Source: a bacterium
GTDB taxonomy: Bacteria > Auribacterota > UBA3054
Direction of reading: 5' to 3'
Assembly (NCBI GenBank): GCA_017554565.1
Contig: JAFZID010000157.1
Coordinates: 1-34,385, forward strand
Length of the DNA stretch: 34,385 bases
The first letter of the stretch is position 1. The number at the start of each line of letters is the position of its first letter. The position numbers and the translations under genes are program-made. The notes below the pieces were generated by a model. That model saw nothing but the letters and a program-made list of their open reading frames with translations, was not told the origin of the DNA and searched no databases. Positions 8,421 through 29,756 of this stretch are shown in pieces.

Positions 8421-10739
8421 TCACCGCTTCCTCACCGCCGCCAAAGTGAGCAAGAGCAAAGCAAATATCCCAACCGGCTCCGGCACAGCGTATCTGAAAT
8501 ACGGCGTTCCGACACCTTCCTCGATATCCCAGATCTCATCGAAATCCCAGCCGACGTAAGTTTCCTGCTGTTTCATCTCTTCCGAACTGACCATATTTGA
8601 TATTTCTCCGTCTGGATAAACATAATCGGAATTGAAATAACAGTTGTAATATTTTACGTCTTTATCCAAAACATAACTTAATTCATGTACATCTGCGTAG
8701 CAATTGGAATAAACAACGTTTTGACTGCCATAGTTGTAATTATTGTTAAAAACAAAACTGTTAAACAACCCCTTTGTGTAGCAGTTTACAAAGGAAGTGT
8801 CATTGCACGAAACGACCAATCCCGCTATCGTCGTATCATTAGAGTCAAGCATATCTGTGATATTCGCAGAAGATTCTTTAATAGCGCTGTTAAACGCTTC
8901 GCCCGATAATCCGCCGATACGGCAGCCGAAGATCCAAACTTCTCCCTTAAAACCGCAACGTATCAGTTCGGAATCATGCATTTGACCGCAAATCCCACCG
9001 TTATATCCATTAGCTAATTCAAAATTTCCTTCAACAAAACAATTGCTGATTTGCGTATTGTTTGCCAGGCCGACCAAAATCCCGCCTGTATTATATTTTT
9101 TCATGCGGAATTTGGCATTGGCGAATCGTATATTTTTAATTTCCGCATATTCAGAACAGCAAAACAAGCCTGCATATCCATAAGAATTAGTAAAATCCAG
9201 AGCAAGATTGTCAATAGTATAATTTTGACCGTCATAAATGCCGGTAAAGTACCGATAGATTTTAAATCCACTATTATATTCACCAATCGGTTTATTAAGT
9301 TTGGTTTCTCGCATATCTAAATCGCATGACTGCAAATAATGTCCGGAAAGAGGATAGGCATTATCAACTCCAATTTTATTCAAATCGTCCGGTTCTGATA
9401 TGTATTTCGCAAAGTTTGCTTCTATTACCATATCCTTTTCCACGCTAAGCGACACTGATGGCTCCTTCGACAAAAGGTCTTTCTTATATTCCAAAAATAC
9501 CGTTTTCTCTTTTTCGTCTGGGATAGCATTTATTAAAACATTTTCACCGTATGCGTATTTGTTTTTTCTAGGCGTTAATTCTATTTTTCCGAAATCCGAA
9601 GAAAAAACACATATTGTGCAAGCGGCGTCTTCAGCAAATTTGAAATAAGGGGGCGTTTCGTTCTCTCGGATCGACCAAATATGGTCAAAATCCCAACCAC
9701 GGAAAGTCGCTTTTCGTTTCATGCGTAGCGTACTAACTCCGGTGCCGAAGTCCGTTCCTTTCATAAGATTTGAATCATAATAGGAACTGAAACAAACGCA
9801 ATCATTCGTTGTCACGGCGCAAATGCCACCCACAACAGCATCGCAAGATTTATCGGCGCTGCAAGTTGCATAGCACTGCATTATTCCGAAATCATTGGTG
9901 TGAACATATCCGTAATAATCCTCCCGGTTTTGTAGCGCGTTGTAACTAATTCCCCCGATAAAGCCGTTCGCGCTAATTTTCATATCGGCATAAGAGTAGC
10001 GAATGTAAGAATCATATCCCAATCCGCCGCATATCCCTCCAATCCAGTTGTTTTTGGCAAATTTATTACATTCAATATATCCTGATGTTTTGCAAAAACG
10101 AACGTCACTTTCATAAATAGAACTAACAATTCCGCCGATCAGCGCCCCGTTTTCAGAATATATCAATCCTGAAAAAGAGCAGTTATACACTCTTGTGTTC
10201 TCTGCTCTGGTAACAACGCCGCCAGTATTAGATCCAGCATAAATAACTCCGCTTACGTGCACATTGGTTATGACGCTATTATCAGAAGAGTTAACCAATC
10301 CGCCTCTTTCAAGCCCTTTTACTCTTTTCCATGTAATATTTTCCAAAAACAAATTTTTTATTTCCGCTTTAGAAACTTTTGATATCAAGGCCGTGGCTTT
10401 TGTGGAGTACATGTTTAAAATAGAATAATTCTGTCCGTCCAACACGCCGCAAAAACTATGCTCTTTTCCGTCTTTGGATTTTTGAGCGTTTCCAATTTCT
10501 AAAAATTCATCTTCCCAATTTTTCGTTTCGCTTGCGTCAATATCATTATCCAAAAGGAAAACGTTAGATTTACATTCAGCTATATTCTGACCCATCCAAA
10601 CAAGATTTTCCAAACAGGTCAAGCGGTATGGCGACTCTCTAGTGCCATTGCCTTCCGGGGCAAGAGGTTCATTGGTGGCAAAACAAGCCGCGGCACAAAA
10701 CAGGGCGAAGATCCATAGCTTGATAAATAAGTGCTTCAT
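8421..10739 (-). CDS. GLUG-motif PEP-CTERM surface protein (unit 2, G2)
   Basis: I start at 10739 (772 residues) because MKHLFIKLWIFALFCAAACFA is a clean signal peptide; the frame is open further upstream to 10790, inside the protease gene. Architecture as in the other GLUG paralogues: conserved head (NEPLAPEGNGTRESPYRLT, ENLVWMGQNIAECKSNVF), GLUG repeats (IGGIVSS, IGGICGG), a first-half end WDFDHIWSIRENETPPYF, an InlB B-repeat-like domain (about 385-445), a second repeat half, then WDFDEIWDIEEGVGTPYF. The tail PEPVGIFALLLLTLAAVRKR is a PEP-CTERM signal. Ser/Asn/Tyr-rich repeats suggest an extended beta surface protein, possibly an adhesin. It is last in the minus operon, 23 bp after the S8 protease stop, so protease and GLUG are swapped relative to unit 1. 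Confidence 0.83.
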   Translation of the reverse strand: MKHLFIKLWIFALFCAAACFATNEPLAPEGNGTRESPYRLTCLENLVWMGQNIAECKSNVFLLDNDIDASETKNWEDEFLEIGNAQKSKDGKEHSFCGVLDGQNYSILNMYSTKATALISKVSKAEIKNLFLENITWKRVKGLERGGLVNSSDNSVITNVHVSGVIYAGSNTGGVVTRAENTRVYNCSFSGLIYSENGALIGGIVSSIYESDVRFCKTSGYIECNKFAKNNWIGGICGGLGYDSYIRYSYADMKISANGFIGGISYNALQNREDYYGYVHTNDFGIMQCYATCSADKSCDAVVGGICAVTTNDCVCFSSYYDSNLMKGTDFGTGVSTLRMKRKATFRGWDFDHIWSIRENETPPYFKFAEDAACTICVFSSDFGKIELTPRKNKYAYGENVLINAIPDEKEKTVFLEYKKDLLSKEPSVSLSVEKDMVIEANFAKYISEPDDLNKIGVDNAYPLSGHYLQSCDLDMRETKLNKPIGEYNSGFKIYRYFTGIYDGQNYTIDNLALDFTNSYGYAGLFCCSEYAEIKNIRFANAKFRMKKYNTGGILVGLANNTQISNCFVEGNFELANGYNGGICGQMHDSELIRCGFKGEVWIFGCRIGGLSGEAFNSAIKESSANITDMLDSNDTTIAGLVVSCNDTSFVNCYTKGLFNSFVFNNNYNYGSQNVVYSNCYADVHELSYVLDKDVKYYNCYFNSDYVYPDGEISNMVSSEEMKQQETYVGWDFDEIWDIEEGVGTPYFRYAVPEPVGIFALLLLTLAAVRKR

Positions 10740-10762
10740 ATCTTTAAATGTTTGGTTTAATG

Positions 10763-12877
10763 CTAGTGAAGTTTGTTCTTGCGCAGACAACAGGCTAAAA
10801 CGGACAAAAAGAGAAATGCTATAGAAGACGGCTCGGGAATCGGGCCTTCGTCCATACCTGTGATCGCCAACGCGAATTTCTGCGGCCCTTTCATGACGTT
10901 ATAGCCGTGCACCCTTACCTCAATATTGTCCTGCGCAACTAATTTGGCGGTACGATACGTTTCGCAGTTGTTTATGGAATCGTTATGCGATATCTTATTA
11001 TTGGCGTAATATGTCCTTTCTTTCGTCTTAACCTGGAGATCAAGATCGTTTATTAGGTCTATGCCTACTCCGGGTGTAGAAGGCGGATCTGTCCAGACCA
11101 AAGTAAACCTTGCCTCCCCGTCAGTATATTTATTGAAACAATAGGTGACAAGCTCTGAAGTATTGCTAATAACGCCTTCAATAACGGTCAAGTAACCGTT
11201 TGTCGACATAATGCTATTTCCAAGGTCAAGATGCCCGAAGCCGTTCACCCAGTTGGGCGTCTTGTTTGGAATTTCAACATATCCTTTATACTGTCCAGTT
11301 CCCATCGAACGAGTCCCGTTCAGCAATACCGCTTTGACAAGAGCGGAAGAAGGATTAGATATTCCCTGATCGCGCAGATATTGAATAACCACGGCCGCCG
11401 AACCGCTGACAAGCGGAGTCGCCATAGAAGTCCCACTTTTTGAGGTATAATACGAAAGTCTTTCTCCTCTGTTAACCCCATCATAAAAAGATGCTGCGGA
11501 CATAATTGCCGTTCCCGGGGCAACGATATCTGGTTTGTTTCTCCCGTCATGCGTTGGTCCTCGACTGGAAAAGGCCGCCATGCCTTGCGATTTTTCGTTT
11601 GCAGGATAAGCGATCAAATCATCCTTAAATGGTTTATCCACCAAAAATAAACTTCTATAAGAGGTTTTTTCTTCCGGTCTAAAAGACTCCGCAGCGCCGA
11701 CAGCTAACACATTTTTTGCCGAGGCCTGCGGGGAAATTGTGGCATTGTCATAAACATCTATACCTGTGTTACTGTTTCCAGCGGCGAAAAGCAATAGCAA
11801 ATCCGTATAATTATAACTCAATGTATCATATAACTCAGAATCTGTGTCATAATTTCCGTCAGAATAACTTCCCCAACTATTACTAATTATTTTGGCGTCG
11901 TTTTCATATGCTTTGACCACATCGCTTTCAATTATATTGAATACGCTGGGCATTGCGTTTCCATTGCATATAAAATAAAGATCAGCTTCTGGAGCTATGC
12001 CACAATATTGTCCGCCGGAAGCGACTCCTGTTCCGCAAACTGAACCGCTGACATGCGTTCCGTGTCCCAAAAGATCGCTCCAACTTCTCCTTTTGTTTAG
12101 GTCAGCAAAAACAGTTTTGATCTGTTTGTTCTGAAAATCGGGATGTAAGGTGTTAGTGTTGCCGGTGTCTAGACCACTGTCCGCAACGGCTACTGTTACG
12201 CCTTTGCCTTTCAGCCCTAATTCGTTATGAACGTACGCAACGTTCATAAGAATATTGCTTTTTACCACATCATTGTAAAAACTGTATTCGCCGCGTTTGT
12301 GCACTCGGAGAATATCGCTTCTTTTGGTAAGTTTTAAAACATCTTCTGTTTTTAAACGAGTTTCCAAGAGCGGAGGTTCATTGGCGATTATTACTATTTC
12401 GTTTGTGGTAGCGTTTTGCAGATAAGCCTGAACATCCGCTGAAAATTTCTGTGAAGCCAAACGTATCCGAACCGGCTCTGTCTTTTCTTCCGATGTCGAA
12501 AGCGCTCTTGCATAGGCTTTTTCCGTTTTATATTCAGGCAGATATTCTCCAACGTAAAGGAGCTCGAATCTATCCGCTAACGAAGCAATCTCTTCCCGCG
12601 TTCCCAAAAAGATATAGGCATTGGGAGGAATTATACCGATGACGCTTAAACCAAAGTCTTGTATTTCTTCGATCTCCCTGAAGCTAAAGTTCTTCTTCGG
12701 TTGAACTATGAACTGATATTCACCAGACGAAGTAGCCGCTGAAATCAATTCCTGATCTGCCAAAACAGATGGCTGACTCGCATCAATGCAGTTTTCCTGC
12801 AGTTTGATGATTCCTGGGTCAGCGACGACTGACATCGTCGCTGACGCCAGAAAAATAAATAAGCATAAAAACATCAT
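10763..12877 (-). CDS. Secreted subtilisin-like serine protease with PEP-CTERM tail (unit 2)
   Basis: A 704-residue S8 peptidase of KP-43-like layout: signal peptide (about 1-19), an N-terminal prodomain-like region (QFIVQPKKNF; GIIPPNAYIFLG; GEYLPEYKTE), catalytic domain from about 205, then a C-terminal beta-sandwich (TLVWTDPPSTPG, LINDLDLQV). The triad is intact: Asp233 (VADSGLDTG), His272 (GHGTHVSG) and Ser484 (SGTSMATP); oxyanion Asn368 is in AAGNS. The C-terminus has PEPSS, a hydrophobic segment and RKNK, a PEP-CTERM signal, so the enzyme is probably cell-surface anchored or sorted by exosortase. It starts with tandem ATGs and no evident Shine-Dalgarno, 33 bp after the family A stop. 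A 125-bp stretch (11331-11455) differs from the paralogue at 15852-15976 at only six bases. Confidence 0.93.
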   Translation of the reverse strand: MMFLCLFIFLASATMSVVADPGIIKLQENCIDASQPSVLADQELISAATSSGEYQFIVQPKKNFSFREIEEIQDFGLSVIGIIPPNAYIFLGTREEIASLADRFELLYVGEYLPEYKTEKAYARALSTSEEKTEPVRIRLASQKFSADVQAYLQNATTNEIVIIANEPPLLETRLKTEDVLKLTKRSDILRVHKRGEYSFYNDVVKSNILMNVAYVHNELGLKGKGVTVAVADSGLDTGNTNTLHPDFQNKQIKTVFADLNKRRSWSDLLGHGTHVSGSVCGTGVASGGQYCGIAPEADLYFICNGNAMPSVFNIIESDVVKAYENDAKIISNSWGSYSDGNYDTDSELYDTLSYNYTDLLLLFAAGNSNTGIDVYDNATISPQASAKNVLAVGAAESFRPEEKTSYRSLFLVDKPFKDDLIAYPANEKSQGMAAFSSRGPTHDGRNKPDIVAPGTAIMSAASFYDGVNRGERLSYYTSKSGTSMATPLVSGSAAVVIQYLRDQGISNPSSALVKAVLLNGTRSMGTGQYKGYVEIPNKTPNWVNGFGHLDLGNSIMSTNGYLTVIEGVISNTSELVTYCFNKYTDGEARFTLVWTDPPSTPGVGIDLINDLDLQVKTKERTYYANNKISHNDSINNCETYRTAKLVAQDNIEVRVHGYNVMKGPQKFALAITGMDEGPIPEPSSIAFLFLSVLACCLRKNKLH
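11331..11455 (-). repeat. Duplicated S8 protease segment, copy in unit 2
   Basis: Compared by eye with 15852-15976 (offset 4521), this 125-bp stretch around the active-site serine shows six differences, all isolated substitutions. The 5' thirds of the two genes are far more diverged, so this segment reflects recent duplication, gene conversion or strong local constraint. Confidence 0.8.
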
Positions 12878-12910: not shown

Positions 12911-13849
12911 TTATTCTCCATATTTTGCCTGGAAAATATCCTCTTCTGTGATATCATCCTTGGCGTTAAGTTTATTATACCAGTAATTAGAGTTTTTGGC
13001 GTTTTCGGAATAGTAACGTTTCGCGTTGCTTTGCCATTTGTTCATCATCTCTATCACTGATTCTTGAATTGGCAGAACGTTAATATCGAATCTTTTCTTG
13101 GCGGTATCTAATGTCTCGCATTCCGGCAAGGAGAATTTTTCTCCGTTCTCGGAATACCATTTGTTAAAATCGCTGAATCTCCAGTTCCCGCGTCCGGGAG
13201 TTTTGTACACTTCCACAAGTTTTTCCAGAGTTTTGTCGTTTTCAAGCGCGGAAGCCAGATATGGGAAAACGTGATATCCCAGCCCCGTTATTTCATTGGC
13301 AAGCTGATCCAAAACCAATGTGCGAGGTGCTTCTCTTTTGTTTTCTTCCTGCCAGCAAGCATACCATTCCGCCCAAATGTTAGGCATATACTTCCTGCCT
13401 TCATACCACCAGTAATAATGAAACAGCGTGGAAGGAATGGTCAAATCGTTTCCTTTGCCGCTAAGCCAAGGGAAGGCTATCGTTCCCAGAGAATCGAAAC
13501 CGAAGCAAAGCTGCGTTAGCAAAAAGGCCCTGCGGTCGGCAAATGAAAGGGCTTTGTTTTCAAAAGTCTGCCCGTCGCCTAAACTTTCCACGCGATTGGT
13601 TATTTCGCCTCTTTCCAGCAGAGTCATGATCAAGGGAAGCGCTTCAGAAACCGGAATGGCTTTGAAAGTTTTGCTTTCGCTATTCCAAATATCGATTTTT
13701 TCCTTAGGAATCTCCAGTTCTTTGTTTTGCTTGGCAAAATAAAGAGCGGAGGAATCGTAGAGCAAGTTTAGATATTCTTCGCTGCTAACTGCCGCTAAAA
13801 TATCCCCTACGCAAATCAGACAAAAACAAGCAAATAATATTTTTTTCAT
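12911..13849 (-). CDS. Secreted protein of unknown family A (unit 2)
   Basis: A 312-residue protein with a signal peptide (about 1-20, ending LAA) and no membrane anchor or PEP-CTERM tail. I recognise no domain. It is clearly homologous to the genes at 19685 and 26546. Shared marks: PVSEALPLIMTL (66-77), ITNRVE (83-88), FPWLSGKG (126-133), LTIPST (136-141), a tryptophan/tyrosine-rich block at 146-166 (YWWYEGRKY...WYACW), GLGYHVFPYLASALE (189-203), SLPECET (240-246) and the almost invariant end EEDIFQAKYG (302-311). The regular helical look could be a HEAT/TPR-like solenoid, but that is a guess. GGAG lies well placed before the ATG. It follows a family B gene by 12 bp, as in both other units, so A and B probably act together. 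Confidence 0.82.
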   Translation of the reverse strand: MKKILFACFCLICVGDILAAVSSEEYLNLLYDSSALYFAKQNKELEIPKEKIDIWNSESKTFKAIPVSEALPLIMTLLERGEITNRVESLGDGQTFENKALSFADRRAFLLTQLCFGFDSLGTIAFPWLSGKGNDLTIPSTLFHYYWWYEGRKYMPNIWAEWYACWQEENKREAPRTLVLDQLANEITGLGYHVFPYLASALENDKTLEKLVEVYKTPGRGNWRFSDFNKWYSENGEKFSLPECETLDTAKKRFDINVLPIQESVIEMMNKWQSNAKRYYSENAKNSNYWYNKLNAKDDITEEDIFQAKYGE

Positions 13850-13861: not shown

Positions 13862-15250
13862 TTATTCCTCTTCTAATATTGGGGCGTATTTAACAGGGGT
13901 ATAAGAATTAATAGGATGTTCAGTGTAGTAATCAAAAAAGTCTTTCCCGTTATGATTTAAGAAAAAACTATTCTCTAATTTCATTATGAACATATTCCCT
14001 ATATTACCGTTACCAGAGTCGGATCTTCTTGCAGCCAATAATCCGCCGTAGAACAAAACGATACTGTCACCAATAAAGTGTGATGAATATAAATTTATTG
14101 GCCATATTGTGCTTCTGTAAAATTCGCTTGCACCTTCAAATGCTTCATATGAAGTACAATACAAACCGTTGCTATACACGATTGGATTTGCTGTCGTTCC
14201 GTATCCGCTTTCGAATACTTTAAATGGGAAACCGATAACTGACCACGATGGATCAACAGCATATGCAGGAGCATTATAATTATTATTTTGATACATCATG
14301 TACTCATCTGTCCAGTCATCAACAACAGAATATTCGCAGTCGATGAGTGCTTGGAAACTGCTTTTCAAAGAGCTCCTTTCATTACGATTAGGTTGCCTTC
14401 CGTGTATATCGGCACAAGAACCATAATTAATATCGGCTATACAGTCAAAATAATTCGTGTCGTTTTTGTGTCCTATTCCTAATCTAACATGCCCGGAGCC
14501 TATAGCAACACTTTCTAAGTAAAGATTACAATCAAAAATATTGCCTTTATTAAAATTTGCTCCGCAATAAATATCCGTCGTTTGGCCCTGCGCCGCTATG
14601 GATTTATAATGTCGTATACCATACTCTAAATGAGAGCGACACAAGCGAATATGATTAGGCATAATTGCTCTGAGCAACACGTAATCCACATTCATAGTTG
14701 ATGGAGTATGACTAATTGTCAGCGGAAGAAGCTCGTCATCAAGGTAAGTCTTATCACCAACTAAAAAATCTTGAACTTCTATATTGGAATCAGTAGCCAT
14801 TCCGTCACCATCAAGATTAAAATAAATGTGTTTTTTGCCATATTGATCCCATTCGCCGTCTCTTATGGTGCTAACTTTTGTCAGCGTAAATAACGGTTCT
14901 CCGACGTTCACCACATAAGAAGCATAGATATACTTTTCTTCGTGAGTGACATGTTCCGTATAACGAAGTCTAGCGTTCAGTATAAAAGGTTGGTCTCCAA
15001 TGTCTAAAAAGACATCGTAATTCCAAACGCTGGTCTGAATATAATTCAATGGATTGCCGTTTAAGTCTGTGCATTCCCAATGATGATCGATTGGATTGCC
15101 GTTCAGATTTCCGCTGACCGCCATATAATATCGAACGTTGTAACTATGTTCGGATATATAGCTCGGCCCGAAAATGTGTAGTACTTTTTCCTCATTTGAG
15201 GCAAAAGCTGTTGCTACCATTAGCAACAAAAAGTAAATTAATTTTTTCAT
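13862..15250 (-). CDS. Secreted protein of unknown family B (unit 2)
   Basis: I start at 15250 (462 residues) rather than 15259: MKKLIYFLLLMVATAFASNE then aligns with the starts of the two paralogues. The signal peptide ends near AFA. It has no PEP-CTERM tail or known domain. The N-terminal ~130 residues look beta-rich and Ig-like (YYMAVSGNLNGNP; WECTDLNGNPLNY; YASYVVNVGEPLFTL). The C-terminal half carries the family marks: CADIHGRQ, a paired later Cys (DCEYS), NAPAYAVDPSW, SVIGFPF, YCTSYEAFEGASEFYRSTIW and LNHNGKDFFDY. Conserved cysteines in a secreted protein suggest a disulfide. It lies 33 bp after the upstream protease stop, whose tail is abnormal, so a new transcript could begin here; I see only a weak TATAAA nearby. 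Confidence 0.8.
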   Translation of the reverse strand: MKKLIYFLLLMVATAFASNEEKVLHIFGPSYISEHSYNVRYYMAVSGNLNGNPIDHHWECTDLNGNPLNYIQTSVWNYDVFLDIGDQPFILNARLRYTEHVTHEEKYIYASYVVNVGEPLFTLTKVSTIRDGEWDQYGKKHIYFNLDGDGMATDSNIEVQDFLVGDKTYLDDELLPLTISHTPSTMNVDYVLLRAIMPNHIRLCRSHLEYGIRHYKSIAAQGQTTDIYCGANFNKGNIFDCNLYLESVAIGSGHVRLGIGHKNDTNYFDCIADINYGSCADIHGRQPNRNERSSLKSSFQALIDCEYSVVDDWTDEYMMYQNNNYNAPAYAVDPSWSVIGFPFKVFESGYGTTANPIVYSNGLYCTSYEAFEGASEFYRSTIWPINLYSSHFIGDSIVLFYGGLLAARRSDSGNGNIGNMFIMKLENSFFLNHNGKDFFDYYTEHPINSYTPVKYAPILEEE

Positions 15251-15283
15251 ATGTCTCATTTTATAAAAGTGTTATTGTCTATT

Positions 15284-17410
15284 TCATATTGAAAATTGTA
15301 TTATCTTAACCCAAAACATAGCGAGCAAAAGCAAAGCAAGCATCCCAGTCGGTTCGGGTATCGGTCCTTCGTCCATGCCGGTAATGGCCAGAGCATAGCG
15401 CTGCGGACCTTTCATAATGTTGTAACCGTGAACTCTGACTTCTATATTGTCCTGAGCGGCCAATTTGGCGACGCGGTATGTCTCGCAGTTGTTTAGGGAA
15501 TCGTTATGACCTACTTTGTTGTTGGCGTAATACGTGCGTTCTTTCGTTTTTACCTGCAAATCAAGATCGTTGATCAGATCAATGCCGACACCAGGAGTGG
15601 AGGGCGGATCTGTCCAGACCAAGGTTACCCGAAGCGGCCCGTCGTTATATTTGTTGAAGCAATAGGTAACAAGATCAGATGTGTTGCTAACAACGCCCTC
15701 TATCGTGATCAAATGAGTGTTTGTCGGCATGATGCTTTGGCCAAGGTCAAGATGTCCGAACCCGTTCACCCAGTTGGGCGTCTTGTTTGGGATCTCTATA
15801 TACCCTTTGAACTGCCCTGTCCCCATTGAGCGAGTTCCATTAAGCAATACAGCTTTGACAAGCGCGGAAGAAGGATTGGATATACCCTGATCGCGCAAAT
15901 ATTGAATAACCACGGCCGCCGAACCGCTTACAAGCGGAGTCGCCATAGAAGTCCCGCTTTTTGAGGTATAATACGATAATCTTTTCCCGTCATTATATTT
16001 GTCATAAAGCGCTTCTGTAGAAATTATCGCGGTTCCCGGAGCAACGATATCTGGTTTGATTCGTCCGTCGTGCGTCGGTCCGCGGCTGGAAAACGCAGCC
16101 ATGCCCTGATGCTCGCCGTCAGCCGGGTAAGCTATCAAGTCATTCTTAAAAATATAGGCCATACCGTCATCGAGCGTAGAACTTGTATAAAAAGCCTTTA
16201 CTTCTGGTCTGAACGACTCCGCGGCTCCAACCGAAATAACGTTCTTCGCCGATGCCAAAGTGGAAATATTTGAGTTGTTGTTTATGTCTTTTTTTTCATT
16301 TTCGTTTCCAACGGCAAACAGAATAGAAAGATCTGGATATTTATAACACAATGTATCGTATAATTCCGAGTCTGTATCATAAATGCCTTGAGAATGATCG
16401 CCCCAACTGTTACTGATCAACTTTACATCGTTCTCATAGGCTTTATCCACATCGTTTTCTGTTAAAGGAAAAACATTATTTGATCCATCTCCAATACATA
16501 TAAAATAAAGATCGGCTTCAGGCGCGATACCGCTATATCGGCCATCGGAAGCCGCCCCCGTTCCGCAGACGGAACCGCTAACATGCGTACCATGACCAAT
16601 AAGATCGCTCCAACCATACCTTTTATTGTTTTCACCCAAAACGCCTACAATTCTTTTCTTTTGAAAATCTGGATGTATTGTGTTGGTAACGCCAGTATCC
16701 AGTCCGCTGTCAGCGATTCCGACCACAACGCCTTTCCCTTTGAATCCCAAGTCGTTGTGCACGTGGGCGACGTTCATTAGAACGTTAGTTTTCACAACGT
16801 CGTTGAAAAGGCTATACTCGCCGCGCCGGTGTACCCTGAGAACGTCACTTCTTTTTGTTAGCTTCAAAGCGTCTTCCGTTTTCAAACTGGTTTCCAAGAT
16901 CGGCGGATCTTTGGCAATAATATCTATTTCGTTTGTCGTTGCACTTTCGAGATACGGCAAAAATTCGGCGAGACAATCCACTGAAGCCAGGCGGATCCTA
17001 GTTAACTCTTCCTTGCCGTCAGATATTGAGAGTGACTTAACAAAAGTCATTTCCGTTTTATATTCCGGCAGATATTCGCCCGCATAAAGAAGGTCAAATC
17101 TATTTTTGAGCAGCGCGACGTCTTCCTTGGATGCCAGCATGATATAGGCATTAGGAGGTATTATGCCTATAAGACTTATGCCTATGGAATTGATCTCACT
17201 AAATTCCTGTGAACTAAAGTTTTTTGGGGGCTGTATTATGAATTGATTCTTGCCAGTCGAAGTAGGCGAGGAAATCAATTCCTGGTTCTCCAAAACAGAC
17301 AACTGACTAGCATCGATGCTGGTTTCCTGTAACTGGATGATTCCTGGATCGGCTATAACTAATACAGCCGCTGACACCAGAAAAACAAATAAACAAGGCA
17401 ATACCCTCAT
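15284..17410 (-). CDS. Secreted subtilisin-like serine protease, degenerate PEP-CTERM tail (unit 1)
   Basis: A 708-residue paralogue of the protease at 10763 with the same layout: signal peptide (1-20), prodomain-like region (FIIQPPKNF; GIIPPNAYIMLA; GEYLPEYKTE), S8 domain and C-terminal beta-sandwich (TLVWTDPPSTPG). Catalytic residues are Asp234 (IADSGLDTG), His273 (GHGTHVSG) and Ser488 (SGTSMATP); oxyanion Asn369 is in AVGNE. The tail reads PEPTGMLALLLLAMFWVKIIQFSI: the Pro-Glu-Pro and hydrophobic part are present, but the terminal Arg/Lys cluster is reduced to one Lys, so exosortase sorting may fail and the enzyme may be released or membrane-held. It starts 1 nt after the GLUG stop (TGATATG) with no Shine-Dalgarno, so translation is probably coupled. 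Confidence 0.93.
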   Translation of the reverse strand: MRVLPCLFVFLVSAAVLVIADPGIIQLQETSIDASQLSVLENQELISSPTSTGKNQFIIQPPKNFSSQEFSEINSIGISLIGIIPPNAYIMLASKEDVALLKNRFDLLYAGEYLPEYKTEMTFVKSLSISDGKEELTRIRLASVDCLAEFLPYLESATTNEIDIIAKDPPILETSLKTEDALKLTKRSDVLRVHRRGEYSLFNDVVKTNVLMNVAHVHNDLGFKGKGVVVGIADSGLDTGVTNTIHPDFQKKRIVGVLGENNKRYGWSDLIGHGTHVSGSVCGTGAASDGRYSGIAPEADLYFICIGDGSNNVFPLTENDVDKAYENDVKLISNSWGDHSQGIYDTDSELYDTLCYKYPDLSILFAVGNENEKKDINNNSNISTLASAKNVISVGAAESFRPEVKAFYTSSTLDDGMAYIFKNDLIAYPADGEHQGMAAFSSRGPTHDGRIKPDIVAPGTAIISTEALYDKYNDGKRLSYYTSKSGTSMATPLVSGSAAVVIQYLRDQGISNPSSALVKAVLLNGTRSMGTGQFKGYIEIPNKTPNWVNGFGHLDLGQSIMPTNTHLITIEGVVSNTSDLVTYCFNKYNDGPLRVTLVWTDPPSTPGVGIDLINDLDLQVKTKERTYYANNKVGHNDSLNNCETYRVAKLAAQDNIEVRVHGYNIMKGPQRYALAITGMDEGPIPEPTGMLALLLLAMFWVKIIQFSI
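15852..15976 (-). repeat. Duplicated S8 protease segment, copy in unit 1
   Basis: Partner of 11331-11455: 125 bp with six differences by eye, covering the active-site serine region. See the other copy for interpretation. Confidence 0.8.
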
Positions 17411-17411
17411 A

Positions 17412-22053: not shown

Positions 22054-22938
22054 TTATTTGCTCCATTTGTTTATCGCGTCCAGTTTCTCAAGCTCTTGCA
22101 GAGCCATTGAGGAAATTGGGAGGCGGTTTGTGTCGTTGGTGTTTGCTAAGGCTAGTTTGCGAAGCGCGGCGCGATAAAGCTTCTCTTCTTTTTCGTCTCC
22201 GCTTAGATTCAGATCGATCCCTTTTAAGCAAAGGCCTATCACATTTTGATTAGCGTCGGCGTTCTTGTCGAGCCACTGGATGCCTTTGCTGATTTTTCTT
22301 TCCCTGTCGCCGGTGGTGAAGATTCTTGCCATTTCAACGTCCGGATCTTTTCTTCCGCCGTTCTTGTCGTAGGCGGCCCAGAAATTGGTCATAGGTTCAA
22401 AATTCCATGGGTGATGGTAGTAGCAGTCGATAAGGTATAGGATGCTGTCTTGGGGATCGTACAAGAAGCAATCGGCCATGGCCTCGTCGTGCTTTTGTAT
22501 CTCCTGACGGTGATAGTGGAAGTCTTCGCTTATGACGTACATCATCTTATAGGCCCAGTAACGTTTGCCTTTGGCCATGTCAGCGTAGCGCTTTAGGGTG
22601 TCGTCGATCTCTTGGGACGCTATGGGAGCGTTCTTAGGCTCTCGGACAAATAGTCTTAATCTCCAGGCTGCCAGAGTTAGCTCCGCGTCGTCGCCGTTCT
22701 TTAGTTTGAATTTGTTAGTGCCGATCTCCTTGATCATATCGTCAACGATCATTCTGGCTTCGGTGTAGGCTCTTTGAGCGGACAAGTCCTCGGCTTCCAG
22801 GAAGAGTTTGTTCCATTCCTGGTGATCTTCCGGAGCCAGACCGGACATATGCCAGACGTCGCCATTTACTGTCACATCGGCATACATGGGCGCGGAGAAG
22901 GAGAGCAGGGCGATCAATAACAAAAGTTTCTTATTCAT
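22054..22938 (-). CDS. Secreted repeat-like protein, short paralogue of the 22931 gene
   Basis: A 294-residue exported protein (signal peptide about 1-20, ending MYA). It aligns along its whole length with roughly the first 295 residues of the neighbour at 22931: NGDVWHMSG against QGRVWLLSS; KRYADMAKGKRYWAYKMMYV against KKYAKEAKGKQWYAYRYALQ; ARIFTTGDRERKISKGIQWLDKN against VYIFDTGLSKEEKFKLINEWFSKN. It lacks the neighbour's C-terminal ~350 residues. The helical pattern suggests TPR-like repeats, but no consensus TPR is clear. Its ATG lies 8 bp inside the upstream gene, with GAGGGC as the likely Shine-Dalgarno, so translation is coupled. Probably a tandem duplicate that kept or lost part of the ancestor. 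Function unknown. Confidence 0.8.
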   Translation of the reverse strand: MNKKLLLLIALLSFSAPMYADVTVNGDVWHMSGLAPEDHQEWNKLFLEAEDLSAQRAYTEARMIVDDMIKEIGTNKFKLKNGDDAELTLAAWRLRLFVREPKNAPIASQEIDDTLKRYADMAKGKRYWAYKMMYVISEDFHYHRQEIQKHDEAMADCFLYDPQDSILYLIDCYYHHPWNFEPMTNFWAAYDKNGGRKDPDVEMARIFTTGDRERKISKGIQWLDKNADANQNVIGLCLKGIDLNLSGDEKEEKLYRAALRKLALANTNDTNRLPISSMALQELEKLDAINKWSK

Positions 22939-24871
22939 CTTTGCCCTCGTTTATTTCTTTCTGCTTCCGGATAAGGGAGGATAGTTCCTCGTCTATCCTG
23001 AAAGGGAAGATGTTGTTGTTCAATACTCGGTTGGTGGCCATGCCTTCCGGCATCTCAGGCGGCTTCGGCCAAATATGCAACAGGGCGTTGAAGAGCTCCT
23101 CGCGCCAGGCTTGGGCTTTCTCGTCGTCTAGGGCGGAGACTATGGCCTTGTTGCGGTCTTCGCTGGTGAACAGCTTGTCGGCGCAGTATTTCCACAGTTC
23201 CGGAGAGATACCGTTGCGGTATTCCTCCAGGACCTGATATTCGTGATCGCTTTCCTTACAGTAGCGGAGCGCTTCCTGGACGTGCCTGGTAAGGTTCGTG
23301 GAATCTTCTGTAAGGAAGCAATAACGGGCGGCGGCGGTATGCCGCATGGCTTTAACGGAGTTCCAGTCTATGCTCGGGACGTCTATCAAAAGAAGCGCCA
23401 GGGCGGGGTGGTTCAGGCCCATTTCGTGAAATATTTCAGCCGCCATAATGTACGAATAGGAAATATATGTCAGACAGGTGGCGTAAGTGTTGACCTTAAG
23501 CAGGTGTTCAAGCGCGTAATAGCTTCTTTCCTCCCTGTTGGAGAAGGGCATTAAGTCGGGAGGAAGGTCTTTGGCCATCCTGCCCAGGAAGAAGTGGGAG
23601 GCGCCTACGCCGAACTCGTCCTTGTTGTCTTCCGAGATAAGGAATTCGAAGCAAGTCTTCGCTTTGCCGTACTGGCCTGTCCAGAACAGTTTCTCCGCCA
23701 GATGGTATATTTGTCCGGCAATGTCTGGGATCTTTATGAGGTCTCTATAGTCCTCTATGTCGCTTAGATCGTCGTTGGGATCCTGGAGTTTTTCTTTAAG
23801 CTTGCCAGCCTTGTTCAAGGCGGAGATAGTCTGCTCAAGGGAAAGATTGCCTTTGTAGCGCTGGTTGGAGTGCTCGCTCCAGATGAAGGCGACGCTCTCA
23901 CACATGTTTTTCCATTCCGGCCCGTTGTTTGACAGCGTCTTTTCCAAACTGGCGGCGCTAAGCTCCTCGTCCAGCGGCTTGGACGTAGCGCCCACGGCCA
24001 ATTCCTTATCGGAGAGGGCGTTCTTGATAAGCGCAAGGACGGGAAGACGCTCTGATACGGGAGGCTGACGCAATGCCAGCAATTTCAAGGTTTCAACGAA
24101 CGCTTTTTTCTTATCGGGGTATTCCTTTATGACAAATTCTCCGGATCTTTCGATTGCCGTTTGCATTACCCGGTATATGGCCAAAGTGTTTTTGGAAAAC
24201 CATTCGTTTATAAGTTTGAATTTTTCTTCTTTGGAAAGTCCGGTGTCAAATATATAAACTAACTCCGTCTCGGCGTTGTTTTTTACGTCAGGATTTGAAA
24301 GTTCGGTCCAGTATTTGCGTATCTCTTCCGCTTTGTCAGGATATGTGCCGGCGTAGCGAAGAAGCCTTTCCAGCTGATATTTGTCGTAAACGTCATAGCT
24401 TACGATGTCTTTCATCGCCCTGATCATATTGTTGGTGTCGCTGGCTCTCCTGTAGTGGAATTCCAGATACTGAAGGGCGTATCTGTAGGCGTACCATTGC
24501 TTGCCTTTGGCTTCTTTGGCGTATTTCTTGATTATGGGCGTAAGTTCTTTTGCTACCGAAGGATTCTTTATATCTTTTCCGTATTTGTAGAAAACCTCCA
24601 TGACTTCAAGCGTCAGAGGAAGCAACTCTCCGTTAGCGAGATAGTAATCTTTTGCTTCACTCTTCTCTCGCAATTCTTTGGATAAAGCTATCGCTTCATT
24701 CCACTTTTCACTTTTAGCGTTGTTTTCTATAAGGCTAAGCGTCTCAGCGACAGTCGCGTTTGTCCCGCTGATGCTCGAAAGAAGCCACACCCTGCCCTGA
24801 ATGTCTATGATGGCAGAAACATCAAGCGTTGCGAAAAAAGCAAGAAAAAATAAAATGCGGACATTTTTCAT
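22931..24871 (-). CDS. Large secreted helical repeat-like protein, first gene of the minus operon
   Basis: A 646-residue exported protein: signal peptide (1-19, ending VSA), then a mostly helical body. Segments such as GQYGKAKTCFEFLIS, ASHFFLGRMAKDLPP, SYYALEHLLKV and AAEIFHEMGLNHPALALLLID look like degenerate TPR/SEL1-type helical pairs, mainly in residues ~370-520. The first ~295 residues are homologous to the shorter downstream neighbour. No catalytic motif and no PEP-CTERM tail. It is the promoter-proximal gene of the ten-gene minus run, so a scaffold role in the periplasm for the following A, B, GLUG and S8 products is a reasonable inference. The ATG is 7 nt from a -10 element, so its message may be leaderless. 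Base composition is noticeably more GC-rich than the genes that follow. Confidence 0.78.
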   Translation of the reverse strand: MKNVRILFFLAFFATLDVSAIIDIQGRVWLLSSISGTNATVAETLSLIENNAKSEKWNEAIALSKELREKSEAKDYYLANGELLPLTLEVMEVFYKYGKDIKNPSVAKELTPIIKKYAKEAKGKQWYAYRYALQYLEFHYRRASDTNNMIRAMKDIVSYDVYDKYQLERLLRYAGTYPDKAEEIRKYWTELSNPDVKNNAETELVYIFDTGLSKEEKFKLINEWFSKNTLAIYRVMQTAIERSGEFVIKEYPDKKKAFVETLKLLALRQPPVSERLPVLALIKNALSDKELAVGATSKPLDEELSAASLEKTLSNNGPEWKNMCESVAFIWSEHSNQRYKGNLSLEQTISALNKAGKLKEKLQDPNDDLSDIEDYRDLIKIPDIAGQIYHLAEKLFWTGQYGKAKTCFEFLISEDNKDEFGVGASHFFLGRMAKDLPPDLMPFSNREERSYYALEHLLKVNTYATCLTYISYSYIMAAEIFHEMGLNHPALALLLIDVPSIDWNSVKAMRHTAAARYCFLTEDSTNLTRHVQEALRYCKESDHEYQVLEEYRNGISPELWKYCADKLFTSEDRNKAIVSALDDEKAQAWREELFNALLHIWPKPPEMPEGMATNRVLNNNIFPFRIDEELSSLIRKQKEINEGKDE

Positions 24872-24878
24872 ATCAACT

Positions 24879-24907
24879 ATTTTACTGTTTTTTTAATATT
24901 ATTACAA
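24879..24907 (-). promoter_or_regulatory. Promoter of the long minus-strand operon (leaderless geometry)
   Basis: Minus strand: TTGTAA (24907-24902), 17-bp spacer, TAAAAT (24884-24879), only 7 nt from the ATG at 24871. No Shine-Dalgarno lies between. The spacing is the same as at the 1755 gene (-10, 7 nt, ATG). Confidence 0.5.
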
Positions 24908-25022
24908 TCAAATGTTATTTTATGTTTCTTAGTACCCCCCCGATTTAAATGTAAGTTGCTTGTATTTGGATATTTATTCCTGGAAACCGCCAAAAAGAGG
25001 CATCATATGAGATTATTACTAG

Positions 25023-25051
25023 TTGAAAACAATCACAAAGTTTTATACAAT
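25023..25051 (+). promoter_or_regulatory. Promoter of the plus-strand unit 3 operon
   Basis: TTGAAA (25023-25028), 17-bp spacer, TACAAT (25046-25051), predicting a leader of about 35 nt that contains AGGAGG (25084-25089) 3 nt before the ATG at 25093. It forms a divergent pair with the minus promoter 116 bp away. The rest of 24872-25092 holds a run of seven C (about 24935-24941) and no gene. Confidence 0.65.
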
Positions 25052-25092
25052 AAGTAAAATATGCTTGCAGTTAATCTTCACTTAGGAGGCAT

Positions 25093-26529
25093 ATGAAAAA
25101 ACTTTTAATCTTCATTGCGTTGTCGTGCGCAGCAGCAATGGCGTCTAACGAGCCAGCTATTATAGTCGTTTCTGGTCCTAATTATATAGCCGCTTCTAGT
25201 TATGGTGTAAAATATCACATAGGAGTAGGCGGTCATCTCAATGGAGATCACCGCGGCTATCTTTGGGAGGTTAGAGATGAAAATAATAATTCTGTAAATG
25301 ATTGGATCGTTAGTCGACACGATGAACAAAATGCAAGAATAAACATAATAAGCAATTGCACGATTTATGCAACTCTATATTATGAAGAATGGGATACGGG
25401 TATTAATAAAAGTTTACATACCTCATATGCAGTAACAACAGGAACGCCAACGTTTTATTTACATCATGCCGATAGCATTCATAACGGCCAATTTGATACT
25501 ACAGTAACCGGTGTAACAACTAGAGTAATACACTTTAACATAGATAATGACGATCATGGTCCAGGGCATGATCAATATACTCCTGACTATCAAATTTATG
25601 GTCAAAAGTATTTATCGGACGATGATGATATTTTGACATTTCAAATAAATTCTTCTCCTACTTCGATGAATGTTGAGTATATTAAACTGGATTTTGAATC
25701 TCCCCATCTACGTGTTTGCAGGATTGTGCCAGGTTCCACTAGCATTTGTTATCCTATTACAACCAATGGCATTATAACTACTGTTTATTGTGGCAATGGT
25801 AACAATCATGGCAGGATCTTTAATCGAAATTTGTATTTAGAGGGCAGAAGAACAGGCTTGGGCAGTCTAAAAATCAAATACAGGCTAGAGAATGGGGATT
25901 CTACAACAATAGCAGAGCTGCGGTATAGAACATGTGCGGACAAAGCAGGACGTCAAGAAATGTTTCCTGGAGATCAGCCCGTTTTTACTCAAGCCAGGTC
26001 GCTGCTTACTGGTTGCGAGTTTTCCATATTTGATTCTCATAATATGTCAAATATAATGCCTCCCTTTTTTTCAACAAACAACAATTTCAACGCCCCTGCT
26101 TTAGCTGTCGATAATTCCTGGAATTTAATGGGCACCCCATTTATAGTTGAATTAGATGGATATGGAACTCCTAACAACCCATTTGTATATAGCAACAATT
26201 GCCTGTATACATCCTACGAAGCGTTCGGTGGCGCTACAGCTTTTTATGAATCTACGCTGTGGGAACCAAAATTGTTTGGCAACGTACCTTTGAGTTATGC
26301 GCGCGTAATTAATTATTGCGAATTAGCCACAGCGCTTAGATCTTTTCACGAGCCGGGAATTTGTCCTGGTTGGAAAATGTTTTACATGAAGTTAACTGGG
26401 CTACCAGATTGGTCCGGAGACGCTATTTTGCATCACAGGGGAGAAGTATTGTATCAATATTATTACGATCAGTATTCTTTGGGCATATCAAGCTGGCAAC
26501 CGAAGATATATGGTTTAGAATTGCCATAA
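25093..26529 (+). CDS. Secreted protein of unknown family B (unit 3)
   Basis: A 478-residue homologue of the genes at 13862 and 20614, on the opposite strand. Signal peptide MKKLLIFIALSCAAAMASNE, nearly the same as in unit 1. The N-terminal beta-rich region is the most diverged part (HLNGDHRGYLWEVRDENNN). The middle block GVTTRVIHFNIDNDD and the C-terminal marks are conserved: RTCADKAGRQ, GCEFSIFD, NAPALAVDNSW, GTPF, YTSYEAFGGATAFYESTLW, ALRSF, LHHRGEVLYQYYY. The Cys pair (CAD and GCE) is kept. A strong AGGAGG and a good promoter make it the first gene of a three-gene operon. It is strikingly AT-rich compared with the housekeeping genes. Function unknown. Confidence 0.82.
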   Translation: MKKLLIFIALSCAAAMASNEPAIIVVSGPNYIAASSYGVKYHIGVGGHLNGDHRGYLWEVRDENNNSVNDWIVSRHDEQNARINIISNCTIYATLYYEEWDTGINKSLHTSYAVTTGTPTFYLHHADSIHNGQFDTTVTGVTTRVIHFNIDNDDHGPGHDQYTPDYQIYGQKYLSDDDDILTFQINSSPTSMNVEYIKLDFESPHLRVCRIVPGSTSICYPITTNGIITTVYCGNGNNHGRIFNRNLYLEGRRTGLGSLKIKYRLENGDSTTIAELRYRTCADKAGRQEMFPGDQPVFTQARSLLTGCEFSIFDSHNMSNIMPPFFSTNNNFNAPALAVDNSWNLMGTPFIVELDGYGTPNNPFVYSNNCLYTSYEAFGGATAFYESTLWEPKLFGNVPLSYARVINYCELATALRSFHEPGICPGWKMFYMKLTGLPDWSGDAILHHRGEVLYQYYYDQYSLGISSWQPKIYGLELP

Positions 26530-26545
26530 GACAGGAGACATGATT

Positions 26546-27472
26546 ATGAAAAAAATATTATTATTATTTTTAGTTTCTGTATCTGTAAATCTTTTTGCAC
26601 TGGAAGAAGCGGAATACTTGCGTTTACTTTACAACGCATCTAAGGCCGTTCCACTCTCGCAGTCAGATATTGACAAAGGAAAAACAAAAAGCTACATATC
26701 TTTTTCGGATCTTGAGCTTTTTAACAAGCTAGCTCCAGCGGAAGCACTTCCCTTATTAATTTCATCATTAGAAAAAGGCATAATAACTAATAGAATCGAA
26801 ACTATTGAAAACACCCAAATAACCAATAGCGTAATTGAATTTGCCAATTACAAAGCCTATTACCTAATGGGATTGTCTTTCGGCTTTGATTCCGTTGGGA
26901 CAGTTGTGTTTCCTTGGTTAACTGGCAAAGGTGATGACCTCACTATACCTGTCACCCAATATCATTACTTCTGGTGGTATGAAGGAAGAAAGTATATGCC
27001 AAAAATATGGAATAACTGGTATTCTTGTTGGCAGATGGAAAGCGGAAGAGAAACGCCACGAAAAATGGTTTTGAATCAGCTTGCCAACGAAATAACCGCT
27101 CTCGGATATCACGTCTTCCCCTATTTGGCCAGTGCGATGGAAACGGATCAAACATTAACAAATGTGTTGGTTTCTTTGCGGCAACCCCATCGCGGCGGAT
27201 GGAGCTTTAAAGATTTTCCAAAGTGGTATAGAGATAACAAAATAACATTTACACTGCCTGAATGTGAAACATTGAAAACGGTTTTAAACCGCATATCCCT
27301 TGATAAAATGCCCATTAGCGAGTCAAATAAAAATGATATGCTAAGATGGCAAAGGAACGAAGAGAGTTTTTATATAACCAATAATTTCTTAGAATATTAT
27401 TGGTACTATAAAATTAACCCCAAGGAAGATATCTCGGAAGAAGATATTTTCCAGGCAAAATATGGAGATTAA
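26546..27472 (+). CDS. Secreted protein of unknown family A (unit 3)
   Basis: I choose the ATG at 26546 (308 residues), since AGGAGA at 26533 is 7 nt away from it but only 1 nt from the in-frame ATG at 26540. Signal peptide MKKILLLFLVSVSVNLFA. The family A marks are present: PAEALPLLISSLE, ITNRIE, FGFDSVGTVVFPWLTGKG, LTIPVTQYHYFWWYEGRKY, IWNNWYSCW, ANEITALGYHVFPYLASAME, LPECET, and the end EEDIFQAKYGD. The last codons carry GGAGA, which also serves as the Shine-Dalgarno of the GLUG gene 4 bp downstream. It lies 16 bp after the family B stop, repeating the B-A-GLUG order of unit 1. No recognisable domain; the function is unknown. Confidence 0.82.
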   Translation: MKKILLLFLVSVSVNLFALEEAEYLRLLYNASKAVPLSQSDIDKGKTKSYISFSDLELFNKLAPAEALPLLISSLEKGIITNRIETIENTQITNSVIEFANYKAYYLMGLSFGFDSVGTVVFPWLTGKGDDLTIPVTQYHYFWWYEGRKYMPKIWNNWYSCWQMESGRETPRKMVLNQLANEITALGYHVFPYLASAMETDQTLTNVLVSLRQPHRGGWSFKDFPKWYRDNKITFTLPECETLKTVLNRISLDKMPISESNKNDMLRWQRNEESFYITNNFLEYYWYYKINPKEDISEEDIFQAKYGD

Positions 27473-27476
27473 AACT

Positions 27477-29756
27477 ATGAAAAAACTAATCTTTTTAACG
27501 TGCTTTTTGGCTTTGTTAGCCAATTGTCTGTTTGCTGCCAACGAAGCGATCAAGCCGGATGGCGAAGGAACAGCGGATTCTCCCTATGTTCTGACAAGAA
27601 TTGAGAATCTGGTTTGGATGGGAGATAACATTAAAACATGTAAAAAAAGTGTTTTCTGCTTAGGAAACGATATTGATGCAAGTGAAACGGCCAATTGGGA
27701 AAAGCAATTCGTGCCAATCGGAACAACAAAGGAAACATGGGGGCAAAATTATAATTTTGAAGGCACACTAGACGGAAAGAATTTTGCCATCAAAAACCTC
27801 CATGTCAGAGACAACGGTATGTTTTTACAAATTTTTGGTGCCAAAATCCAAAATTTATATCTGGATAATTACAGAGGCAAACAAGGCGGATTGGCTCCAA
27901 TGTGTGCTGCTAGCACAATAACTAACGTTCATGTCTCGGGTTTAATTTTAGGCTCTGGGTTCGCAGGAGGTATTTGTGGCTATGTTGATAACTCAGCAAT
28001 CGTTAACTGCTCTTTTATGGGACTTATAAGCACAATTAGAGAGGGTAGTTTTGGCGGAATTGTTGGTCAAGCTGAGTATAGCGACATTAGTTATTGCAAA
28101 TCTTCTGGTTACATCTATAGCTCAGGTGACACAGACAATGTTGGCGGTATTTGTGGGATTGTTAGTGGAAACGATTATTACGATAAATATTATCCCCGTG
28201 TTCGTTATTGCATAGCAGATATGAAAATCAAAGCCAAAGGAAATGTCGGCGGCATCGTTGCGCTAAATCAAATAGAAAATGTTGAACAATATCCCGGTGA
28301 AGACCCATATGTTTTGAATAATTTAGGCCTTATCGATAACTATTCTTTGTGTATTGCCGATGTTTCATCGGCTGTATGTGTTGGCGGTATATGCGCCGTT
28401 TTTGATAAAAACACCGCAGCAAGTATAAATAATTTTTACGACAAGACGGGAATCAATGGTACAGTTTTTGGCACAGGGTTGTCTTCCGAGAGAATGAAAA
28501 ATAAATCTTCTTACACTCGTTGGGATTTTAACAAGATTTGGACCATTCAAGAGGGAGAAACAACACCATATTGGGCTATATGCAACAACAAACCATATAG
28601 AGTCGCCTGCATATCCAATTTTGACAATACTCTGAACGTTGCTCCTGGAGAAAAAAGTTATGCCTTCAACGAGAATGCCACAATAAACGCTACAGCACCT
28701 GAAGACGGGGAGTTTCTTGGATTCAAGGGAGATATTGATGGCACAGAAACCTCAGTTTCTGTCGATCTGAAGAAAGATTTAGTTGTTGAAGGTGTGTTTG
28801 CGAAGCACATCGGTACGGCGGAGGATTTCCTAAAAATTGGAAGGAATAATGATTATCCAAAAGACGGATATTATATTCAAACTTCAAACATTGATATGTC
28901 TGGAATAGAATATCCGGTTCCCACGGATTTTTTGGGAGTTTATGATGGAAACAATCGCATCATTCGCAACATTAAATTTTGCAAATACGCAATAGAACTA
29001 GGCTTGTTTTCCAATATTCGATATGCAAAGATATGCAATTTAGGAATCATAAATGTTGAAAAGAATATCGGTGAACTATACAACCAAAATTTTGGCTTTT
29101 TGGTCGGCGGCGATACATCATATTCGGAAATAAGCAATTGTTATATTACAAGCGATGTGTTTTTAAACAATACCAGTTACGCTGGAGGAATCTGCAATGG
29201 TTTTGGTTATTCAAAGATGAGCAAATGCGAATTCCGAGGAACGATATTATATTCTCCTACTTCATTTGGCGGTTTAGTCAACACTGCGATCCAAAGTACA
29301 TTTGAAGAATGCAGTGTTGAAATCTTTAACGGACTTAACGCCAGAAAAAATACGATCAGCGGACTAACGTTCGGTGGCCAAAAATCTTTCTTTGCTAACT
29401 GTTATGTAAAAGGTGATTGTTTGGATTATGCCTTTGCCGCCTCTATACCTCGGGTAGAACCAGAATTTACTTTCTCTAACTGTTATGTGCTTGCCGAAAA
29501 TCCTAATGTTCAGGTTGACGCCAATATCATCAACTGTTATTTCAATTCCAACTGTGTTGAGCAAGTCGAAGGCGTGACTGGATTCGTCAGCCCTGAAGAG
29601 ATGAAACAGCAGGAAACCTACGTTGGCTGGGACTTTGACGAGATCTGGGATATCGACGAGGGTGTTGGAACGCCGTATTTCAGATACGTTGTGCCGGAGC
29701 CGGTTGGGATGCTTGCTTTGTTTTTGCTTGCTTTGGTGGCGGTGAGAAAGCGGTGA
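27477..29756 (+). CDS. GLUG-motif PEP-CTERM surface protein (unit 3, G4)
   Basis: I start at 27477 (759 residues): MKKLIFLTCFLALLANCLFA is a signal peptide like that of G1, with GGAGA 8 nt upstream; the in-frame ATG at 27462 lies inside the previous gene. Conserved head (NEAIKPDGEGTADSPYVLT, ENLVWMGDNIKTCKKSVF, NDIDASETANW), GLUG repeats (GGICGYVD, GGIVGQA, VGGIVALN), first-half end WDFNKIWTIQEGETTPYW, InlB B-repeat-like domain (about 385-443), second half and WDFDEIWDIDEGVGTPYF. The tail PEPVGMLALFLLALVAVRKR is a PEP-CTERM signal. The middle diverges strongly from the other copies, while the last ~65 codons are almost the same as G1 and are more GC-rich. No protease gene follows; a terminator does. 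Confidence 0.84.
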   Translation: MKKLIFLTCFLALLANCLFAANEAIKPDGEGTADSPYVLTRIENLVWMGDNIKTCKKSVFCLGNDIDASETANWEKQFVPIGTTKETWGQNYNFEGTLDGKNFAIKNLHVRDNGMFLQIFGAKIQNLYLDNYRGKQGGLAPMCAASTITNVHVSGLILGSGFAGGICGYVDNSAIVNCSFMGLISTIREGSFGGIVGQAEYSDISYCKSSGYIYSSGDTDNVGGICGIVSGNDYYDKYYPRVRYCIADMKIKAKGNVGGIVALNQIENVEQYPGEDPYVLNNLGLIDNYSLCIADVSSAVCVGGICAVFDKNTAASINNFYDKTGINGTVFGTGLSSERMKNKSSYTRWDFNKIWTIQEGETTPYWAICNNKPYRVACISNFDNTLNVAPGEKSYAFNENATINATAPEDGEFLGFKGDIDGTETSVSVDLKKDLVVEGVFAKHIGTAEDFLKIGRNNDYPKDGYYIQTSNIDMSGIEYPVPTDFLGVYDGNNRIIRNIKFCKYAIELGLFSNIRYAKICNLGIINVEKNIGELYNQNFGFLVGGDTSYSEISNCYITSDVFLNNTSYAGGICNGFGYSKMSKCEFRGTILYSPTSFGGLVNTAIQSTFEECSVEIFNGLNARKNTISGLTFGGQKSFFANCYVKGDCLDYAFAASIPRVEPEFTFSNCYVLAENPNVQVDANIINCYFNSNCVEQVEGVTGFVSPEEMKQQETYVGWDFDEIWDIDEGVGTPYFRYVVPEPVGMLALFLLALVAVRKR

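Follow-up and report, generated by a model that had tools for sequence, protein, structure and literature searches.

A recurrent exported gene pair with DUF7689- and HEAT-like features: a candidate toxin-immunity-like pair repurposed as a surface module

What use does a bacterium have for three copies of one exported gene pair, each followed by a GLUG-type PEP-CTERM protein? The question is raised by contig JAFZID010000157.1 (NCBI GenBank assembly GCA_017554565.1; Auribacterota, UBA3054), whose 34,385 nucleotides we call the window, and where three pairs of genes from two families, B and A, lie between positions 8421 and 29756. We put at about one half the probability that this module descends from a toxin-immunity-like pair and now serves, without catalysis, as a recombining surface module. 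The reading is carried by the relatives of B and A outside the window and by the distribution of one putative catalytic cysteine. The genes at this locus form two operons that diverge from a 221-bp spacer, running D, C, B1, A1, GLUG1, S8a, B2, A2, S8b, GLUG2 in the minus arm and B3, A3, GLUG3 in the plus arm:

22931 to 24871, minus strand: D, long form, 646 amino acids (aa), helical/TPR-like and secreted; homologous to C over its N-terminal half
22054 to 22938, minus strand: C, 294 aa, helical and secreted, paralogous to D over D's N-terminal half
20614 to 22032, minus strand: B1, 472 aa, predicted immunoglobulin (Ig)-like domain, NDDDD/DDD beta domain and degenerate DUF7689-like domain; motifs YDYNAPAFAVD and WAALR
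19685 to 20605, minus strand: A1, 306 aa, secreted partner, all-alpha and HEAT-like as judged from a structure model and profile comparison
17412 to 19679, minus strand: GLUG1, GLUG-type beta-solenoid with InlB B-repeat and PEP-CTERM sorting tail
15284 to 17410, minus strand: S8a, subtilase with PEP-CTERM tail and readable catalytic D/H/S motifs, outside the recurrent core
13862 to 15259, minus strand: B2, 465 aa, architecture as B1; motifs NNYNAPAYAVD and LLAARR
12911 to 13849, minus strand: A2, 312 aa, HEAT-like partner, secreted; orthologue in genome G006 96% identical
10763 to 12877, minus strand: S8b, subtilase with PEP-CTERM tail
8421 to 10739, minus strand: GLUG2, GLUG/PEP-CTERM protein, start placed at 10739, upstream TTG not used
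24872 to 25092, no strand: divergent promoter region separating the two arms, from a scan for promoter-like sites
25093 to 26529, plus strand: B3, 478 aa, architecture as B1; motifs NNFNAPALAVD and ATALR
26546 to 27472, plus strand: A3, 308 aa, secreted HEAT-like partner
27477 to 29756, plus strand: GLUG3, GLUG/PEP-CTERM protein (Pfam Glug, 29.5 bits)
4443 to 6713, minus strand: GLUG0, fourth GLUG/PEP-CTERM paralogue, solitary

Intergenic gaps in both arms are 33 bp or less, or the open reading frames (ORFs) overlap, and inspection by eye with a simple pattern found a signal peptide in all products of both arms. The A copies are 42–50% and the B copies 41–45% identical within the window, so that copying is not in doubt. 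The area of the spacer holds seven sigma-70-like sites against 1.3 expected from shuffles of 24700-25150. A preliminary description of the locus, made from the letters alone, had reported three B-A pairs in tight operons with a GLUG/PEP-CTERM gene after each and divergent arms around a promoter region; its ORFs, strands, order and gaps are as we find them.

We compared the window with 44 genomes of the phylum, mostly fragmented assemblies, of which eight belong to the window's genus; the source records that are named are rumen and intestine metagenome assemblies from water buffalo and yak. Family A is present in all eight genus genomes, with a single weak match outside the genus. Searching the genus genomes with B alone returned 33 copies in seven genomes, and each of the 33 was accompanied by an A gene no more than 1.5 kb away and on its own strand; in 30 cases A came directly downstream, at a distance of 200 bp or less. 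Chance adjacency is thereby rejected. This pairing, together with the purifying selection described below, bears out the earlier proposal that B and A are selected and inherited together. Searches of phages, plasmids and viral contigs returned no relatives, so that nothing points to carriage by phages or mobile elements. In G006, two loci (L066 and L068, on contigs C4 and C6) carry the same GLUG-B-A-GLUG unit with the same flanking genes and identical match scores, either because a large segment was duplicated or through an artefact of assembly.

The window's own A, B, C and D gave nothing meaningful against Pfam, NCBIfam, PHROGs and PADLOC, in line with the earlier statement that A and B match no known family; this statement fails once other family members are considered. 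The C-terminus of remote B copies reads CEW...YNCIAYAVD...HAAR...SK...IHR, to be compared with the conserved signature of the compact DUF7689 domain, N-C...H-A-A-R...S-K-[LM]-G...I-E/x-H. A B copy on contig C60 of the window's own genome matches Pfam DUF7689 (PF24738) at 23.2 bits, above the cut-off of 22.6, and the copy at L042 scores 21 bits. A profile of stand-alone DUF7689 proteins aligned to the B profile with 95% hhalign probability (2e-8; two-protein profile); this and the other hhalign values are single comparisons of small profiles. Together these comparisons show the C-terminal domain of B to be a predicted homologue of DUF7689, and as read from the remote copies the architecture of B is a predicted Ig-like domain, an 'NDDDD' beta domain and DUF7689. 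A structure model of B has beta-sandwiches as its two N-terminal domains, and Foldseek returned generic Ig-like matches to the N-terminal part only. The NDDDD...GENDL beta domain, the second of B, has no Pfam model; weak matches of the beta domain to shark antibodies in the PDB were treated as chance. The same domain makes up, in repeated form, a giant exported protein in G205 (L185:2-3970, minus strand), directly upstream of which lies a secreted TPR protein.

The model of A1 (predicted local distance difference test, pLDDT, 84) is all helical apart from one hairpin. It had no Foldseek match below 1e-3, no Pfam model, HEAT included, matched the window A proteins, and sequence searches of the PDB with window A, B, C and D found no relative. 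A more telling comparison comes from G148, a genome of another phylum, where a secreted fn3 protein of 1832 aa (L158) ends with the B beta domain (B profile, 5e-24) followed by DUF7689 (61.6 bits, residues 1673-1829). Thirteen base pairs downstream lies a gene for a 410-aa exported HEAT protein (HEAT_2, 1e-10), an order that, by analogy, is the layout of a putative effector and its immunity gene. G033, which belongs to a different family within the window's phylum, has a distant A preceded by a remnant of DUF7689 that a frameshift has probably broken in two. The HEAT partners of L158 and L148 align to each other and to family A (hhalign 94%, 1e-7). These results show A to be a predicted exported, HEAT-like helical protein encoded directly downstream of B, and they show that putative DUF7689-HEAT gene pairs related to B-A exist beyond the window's own family, both within the phylum and outside it.

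Within the genus, the state of the putative DUF7689 active site sets apart two classes of B. Among the 28 full-length B proteins surveyed, nine keep both the NC motif and the HAAR histidine, and none of these has a GLUG neighbour; the other 19 have lost the cysteine (NA, NS, SS or SA in its place), and all 19 have a GLUG protein in their operon. The presence of GLUG thus matches cysteine loss without exception, which upholds the earlier view of GLUG as a standing partner, for the cysteine-less subclass. As to how often B-A-GLUG clusters recur in the genus, B is never found apart from A (33/33), but GLUG lies beside only 19 of 28 B units. The three window copies belong to the degenerate class: their motifs read NAPA and WAALR/LAARR/TALR, so that the cysteine and the HAAR histidine are both gone, with the CE[WFY] glutamate and the last histidine retained, whereas NC and HAAR are intact in nine other genus copies and in L158. 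On the B tree, cysteine loss and GLUG association each change once, on the same branch (support 84/83). Because both traits switch on one branch, they represent one evolutionary event, and independent repeated loss of the cysteine is rejected.

The orthologous locus of G006, the nearest relative, shares with the window a flank (carB), D, C and three B-A-GLUG units, in a different gene order and with no S8 gene. Between the two loci, omega is 0.07–0.23 for every gene (0.10 for C and 0.14 for D, the latter 91% identical) and no internal stops occur; the dead copies are therefore maintained, and decay of the dead B copies is rejected. Synonymous divergence (dS) is 0.17–0.47 for carB, the FGE gene, C, D and A2, against 0.81 for A1, 2.3 for A3 and 1.2–5 for B and GLUG. 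B2, B1, D and GLUG consist of near-identical blocks joined to blocks of about 50% identity. GLUG C-termini are 84–88% identical between paralogues 4–25 kb apart; in GLUG0 this identity, to the corresponding stretches of GLUG2 and GLUG3, covers the C-terminal 174–263 bp. The mosaic blocks, the shared GLUG C-termini and the reshuffled gene order point to probable recombination between alleles and paralogues. Divergence of A and B is strongly correlated (r 0.79–0.91), and specific co-evolution of A with the C-terminal domain of B is unsupported over other parts of B.

The membership of the module also needed revision. B, A and GLUG stand as described, but C and D had been overlooked although they recur, and the S8 protease is not part of the core. 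Both S8 proteins are subtilases (Peptidase S8, 160.9 and 164.3 bits; DSG, GHGTH and GTSMA motifs present), one gene separating GLUG1 from B2 and the other A2 from GLUG2. Within module loci, S8 is found only as the window's own copies; since neither the G006 locus nor any other module locus examined has it, we reject it as a core member. The S8 genes are a lineage-specific insertion, and the role in maturation earlier given to the protease is not supported.

In 15 of 19 cases the distance between D and B is no more than 1.5 kb, and the long form of D, in which C is fused to D, is confined to the GLUG class. D also has homologues in two genomes from other genera of the same taxonomic order. At three of four outside loci, in sister genera, C-D immediately precede a full-length RHS/YD-repeat protein; at the fourth (L144:1826-3181, G008) an Ig-domain protein follows where the sister loci carry RHS. 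From this context we infer that C-D may be accessory to exported effector-type proteins. The L144 Ig-domain protein resembles B at its N-terminus, and its C-terminus looks transglutaminase-like by eye, with Cys, His and Asp visible. The window proteins that were scanned gave no RHS match.

Family A also occurs without B: as six fusions to GH27 alpha-galactosidase, as four orphan genes in G004 and at three further loci, two of which are fusions with the N-terminal domain of B, the third being cut by a contig end. In the fusions at L070:10130-11452 and L057:264-1628, the Ig-like domain of B is joined to the A domain with no DUF7689. The orphan genes in G004 (L051:6331-9563, three in tandem on contig C182, and L050:15022-16032) resemble orphan immunity arrays. 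The GH27 fusions, one in each of six genus genomes (L061:9679-11952, L056:4305-6569, L067:9068-11341, L040:2062-4311, L049:9783-11741 and L054:2-1867), have the A domain N-terminal and suggest that A may have a use beyond pairing with B.

How does this compare with known systems? B shares with DUF7689 (PF24738) the signature YNCxAWA / HAAR / SKLG-IEH in its cysteine-bearing copies and differs in its added Ig-like domain, NDDDD beta domain and signal peptide; the window B proteins, lacking the Cys and the HAAR His, have no Pfam score. Polymorphic toxin systems with Imm-HEAT offer a precedent for HEAT immunity proteins and for NC-H papain-like toxins (Zhang et al. 2012, PMC3482391). As in those systems, the B family has a C-terminal NC-H domain on an exported carrier with a HEAT-type gene directly after it, partner genes occur as orphans, and C-D are linked to RHS proteins. 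The family thus carries its putative effector domain C-terminally in an exported protein, the partner gene lying directly downstream; in the window this domain is degenerate, and a functional active site is absent because the nucleophile is lost. In contrast to Imm-HEAT toxins, the partner is exported here, most B carriers are short (440–680 aa), toxicity is only putative and a PEP-CTERM protein has been added to the unit. RHS polymorphic toxins also contain catalytically dead papain-fold domains beside Ig domains (PMC3482391); these inactive transglutaminase domains resemble the putatively papain-like domain of B in lying beside Ig domains in exported proteins and in having lost catalytic residues, but they are N-terminal, before the RHS repeats, whereas the dead domain of B is C-terminal with a separate HEAT partner. 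The GLUG and S8 proteins (GLUG0–3, S8a and S8b) end in PEP, a transmembrane helix and a basic tail, and an exosortase is encoded in the genome, as for PEP-CTERM/exosortase proteins (PMC1569441); A, B, C and D differ in having no such tail. Seven of the eight genus genomes encode an exosortase, including the window's genome G000 (Exosortase_EpsH, 124 bits). Exosortase is needed for processing PEP-CTERM proteins.

From these genomic facts we infer a toxin ancestry and a surface function as follows. DUF7689 may be a papain-like thiol hydrolase serving as a C-terminal effector domain; A would bind it, ancestrally as an inhibitor or immunity protein, and C-D would assist export or assembly of effector-type proteins. 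In the window class the enzyme would be dead, leaving the binding role alone. Exported B and A would form a complex, which would be brought to the cell surface by the GLUG protein that their operon encodes and exosortase sorts, and recombination between alleles and paralogues would vary the middle parts of B and GLUG. The likely output would be a diversified surface or adhesion layer, not a toxin. More tentative is a fuller history, less likely than not, in which after a single loss of the active site the pair joined GLUG/PEP-CTERM, kept its binding interface and C-D, and spread to up to about 15 B-A copies (both classes) in one genome with mosaic, recombining alleles, as a variable surface-display system.

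Several observations weigh against this reading. The window B proteins by themselves have no DUF7689 match (B1 and B3 against Pfam), the link passing through other family members, and the match of A to HEAT proteins depends on a two-sequence profile. The papain-like fold is tentative: the model of the C-terminal domain of B has a pLDDT of about 30, and searches of the PDB found no relative of the domain; a literature search found no assay of any DUF7689 protein. Divergence of A tracks all parts of B and not the C-terminal domain specifically, and the fusion of A to GH27 alpha-galactosidase in six genomes is odd for an immunity protein. Cysteine loss and GLUG association, being one event, do not count as repeated evidence.

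Among the alternatives, the one that survives best, though unlikely, is a dedicated surface-protein export, assembly or modification system in which A, B, C and D are chaperones or assembly factors for GLUG/PEP-CTERM and were never toxin-related. Signal peptides on all products fit it, as do GLUG adjoining 19 of 28 B units, the missing active site in the window copies, and the resemblance of helical C, D and A to scaffold or chaperone proteins. However, nine B units have no GLUG neighbour, C-D go with RHS proteins outside the genus, and a solitary GLUG gene without A or B exists (GLUG0). The GLUG-less pair in another phylum, where DUF7689 is the C-terminal domain of a giant exoprotein, tells against it as well; with the GLUG-less B-A pairs of the genus, it leaves unsupported the primary role that the preliminary description had given A and B in exporting or modifying GLUG.

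We consider it improbable that the system is a still-active polymorphic toxin-immunity system, with B a secreted toxin even in the window, A protecting the producer and the diversity arising from competition. The effector-then-partner gene order with a HEAT-type partner, the orphan tandem A genes in G004, the strong divergence and mosaic alleles of the copies and the link of C-D to RHS would all suit it, but the nucleophile is missing in the three window and 16 other GLUG-linked copies, the HAAR His is gone as well from the window copies, the window holds no RHS or other delivery gene, and A is fused to GH27 elsewhere. Least probable is an adhesion or glycan-foraging module in which GLUG would be the adhesin and A and B would bind polysaccharides of the host or of plants, an idea that the A-GH27 fusions in six genomes, the Ig-like and beta-solenoid architectures, the variable middle regions and the rumen or gut origin of named relatives favour, but A, B, C and D match no carbohydrate-binding family and carbohydrate-active enzymes are not typical neighbours of B-A loci.

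Two other gene sets adjoin the locus. At 2418-4236 (minus strand) of the window, an FGE-sulfatase-type (SUMF1-like) protein adjoins a small PEP-CTERM protein, and this duo recurs beside B-A-C-D in L052 and L062. A two-gene cassette inserted beside the locus (6925-8231, minus strand) encodes a helix-turn-helix plus DUF3990 protein (Pfam, 101 bits); its partner, of 144 aa, matches the PADLOC candidate defence models PDC-M42A/PDC-M13B and PDC-M42B.

For the families concerned, the reading of B-A as a repurposed toxin-immunity-like pair has several consequences. DUF7689, an unstudied domain, gains a genomic context, that of an effector-like domain which is exported and accompanied by a HEAT partner, and C and D, previously unannotated, are now assigned to RHS-type loci. 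The same small genomes hold a natural series, cysteine-bearing pairs without a surface partner versus cysteine-less pairs with one, which makes testable both whether DUF7689-HEAT may be an effector-immunity pair and whether such pairs may be recycled as structural surface proteins.
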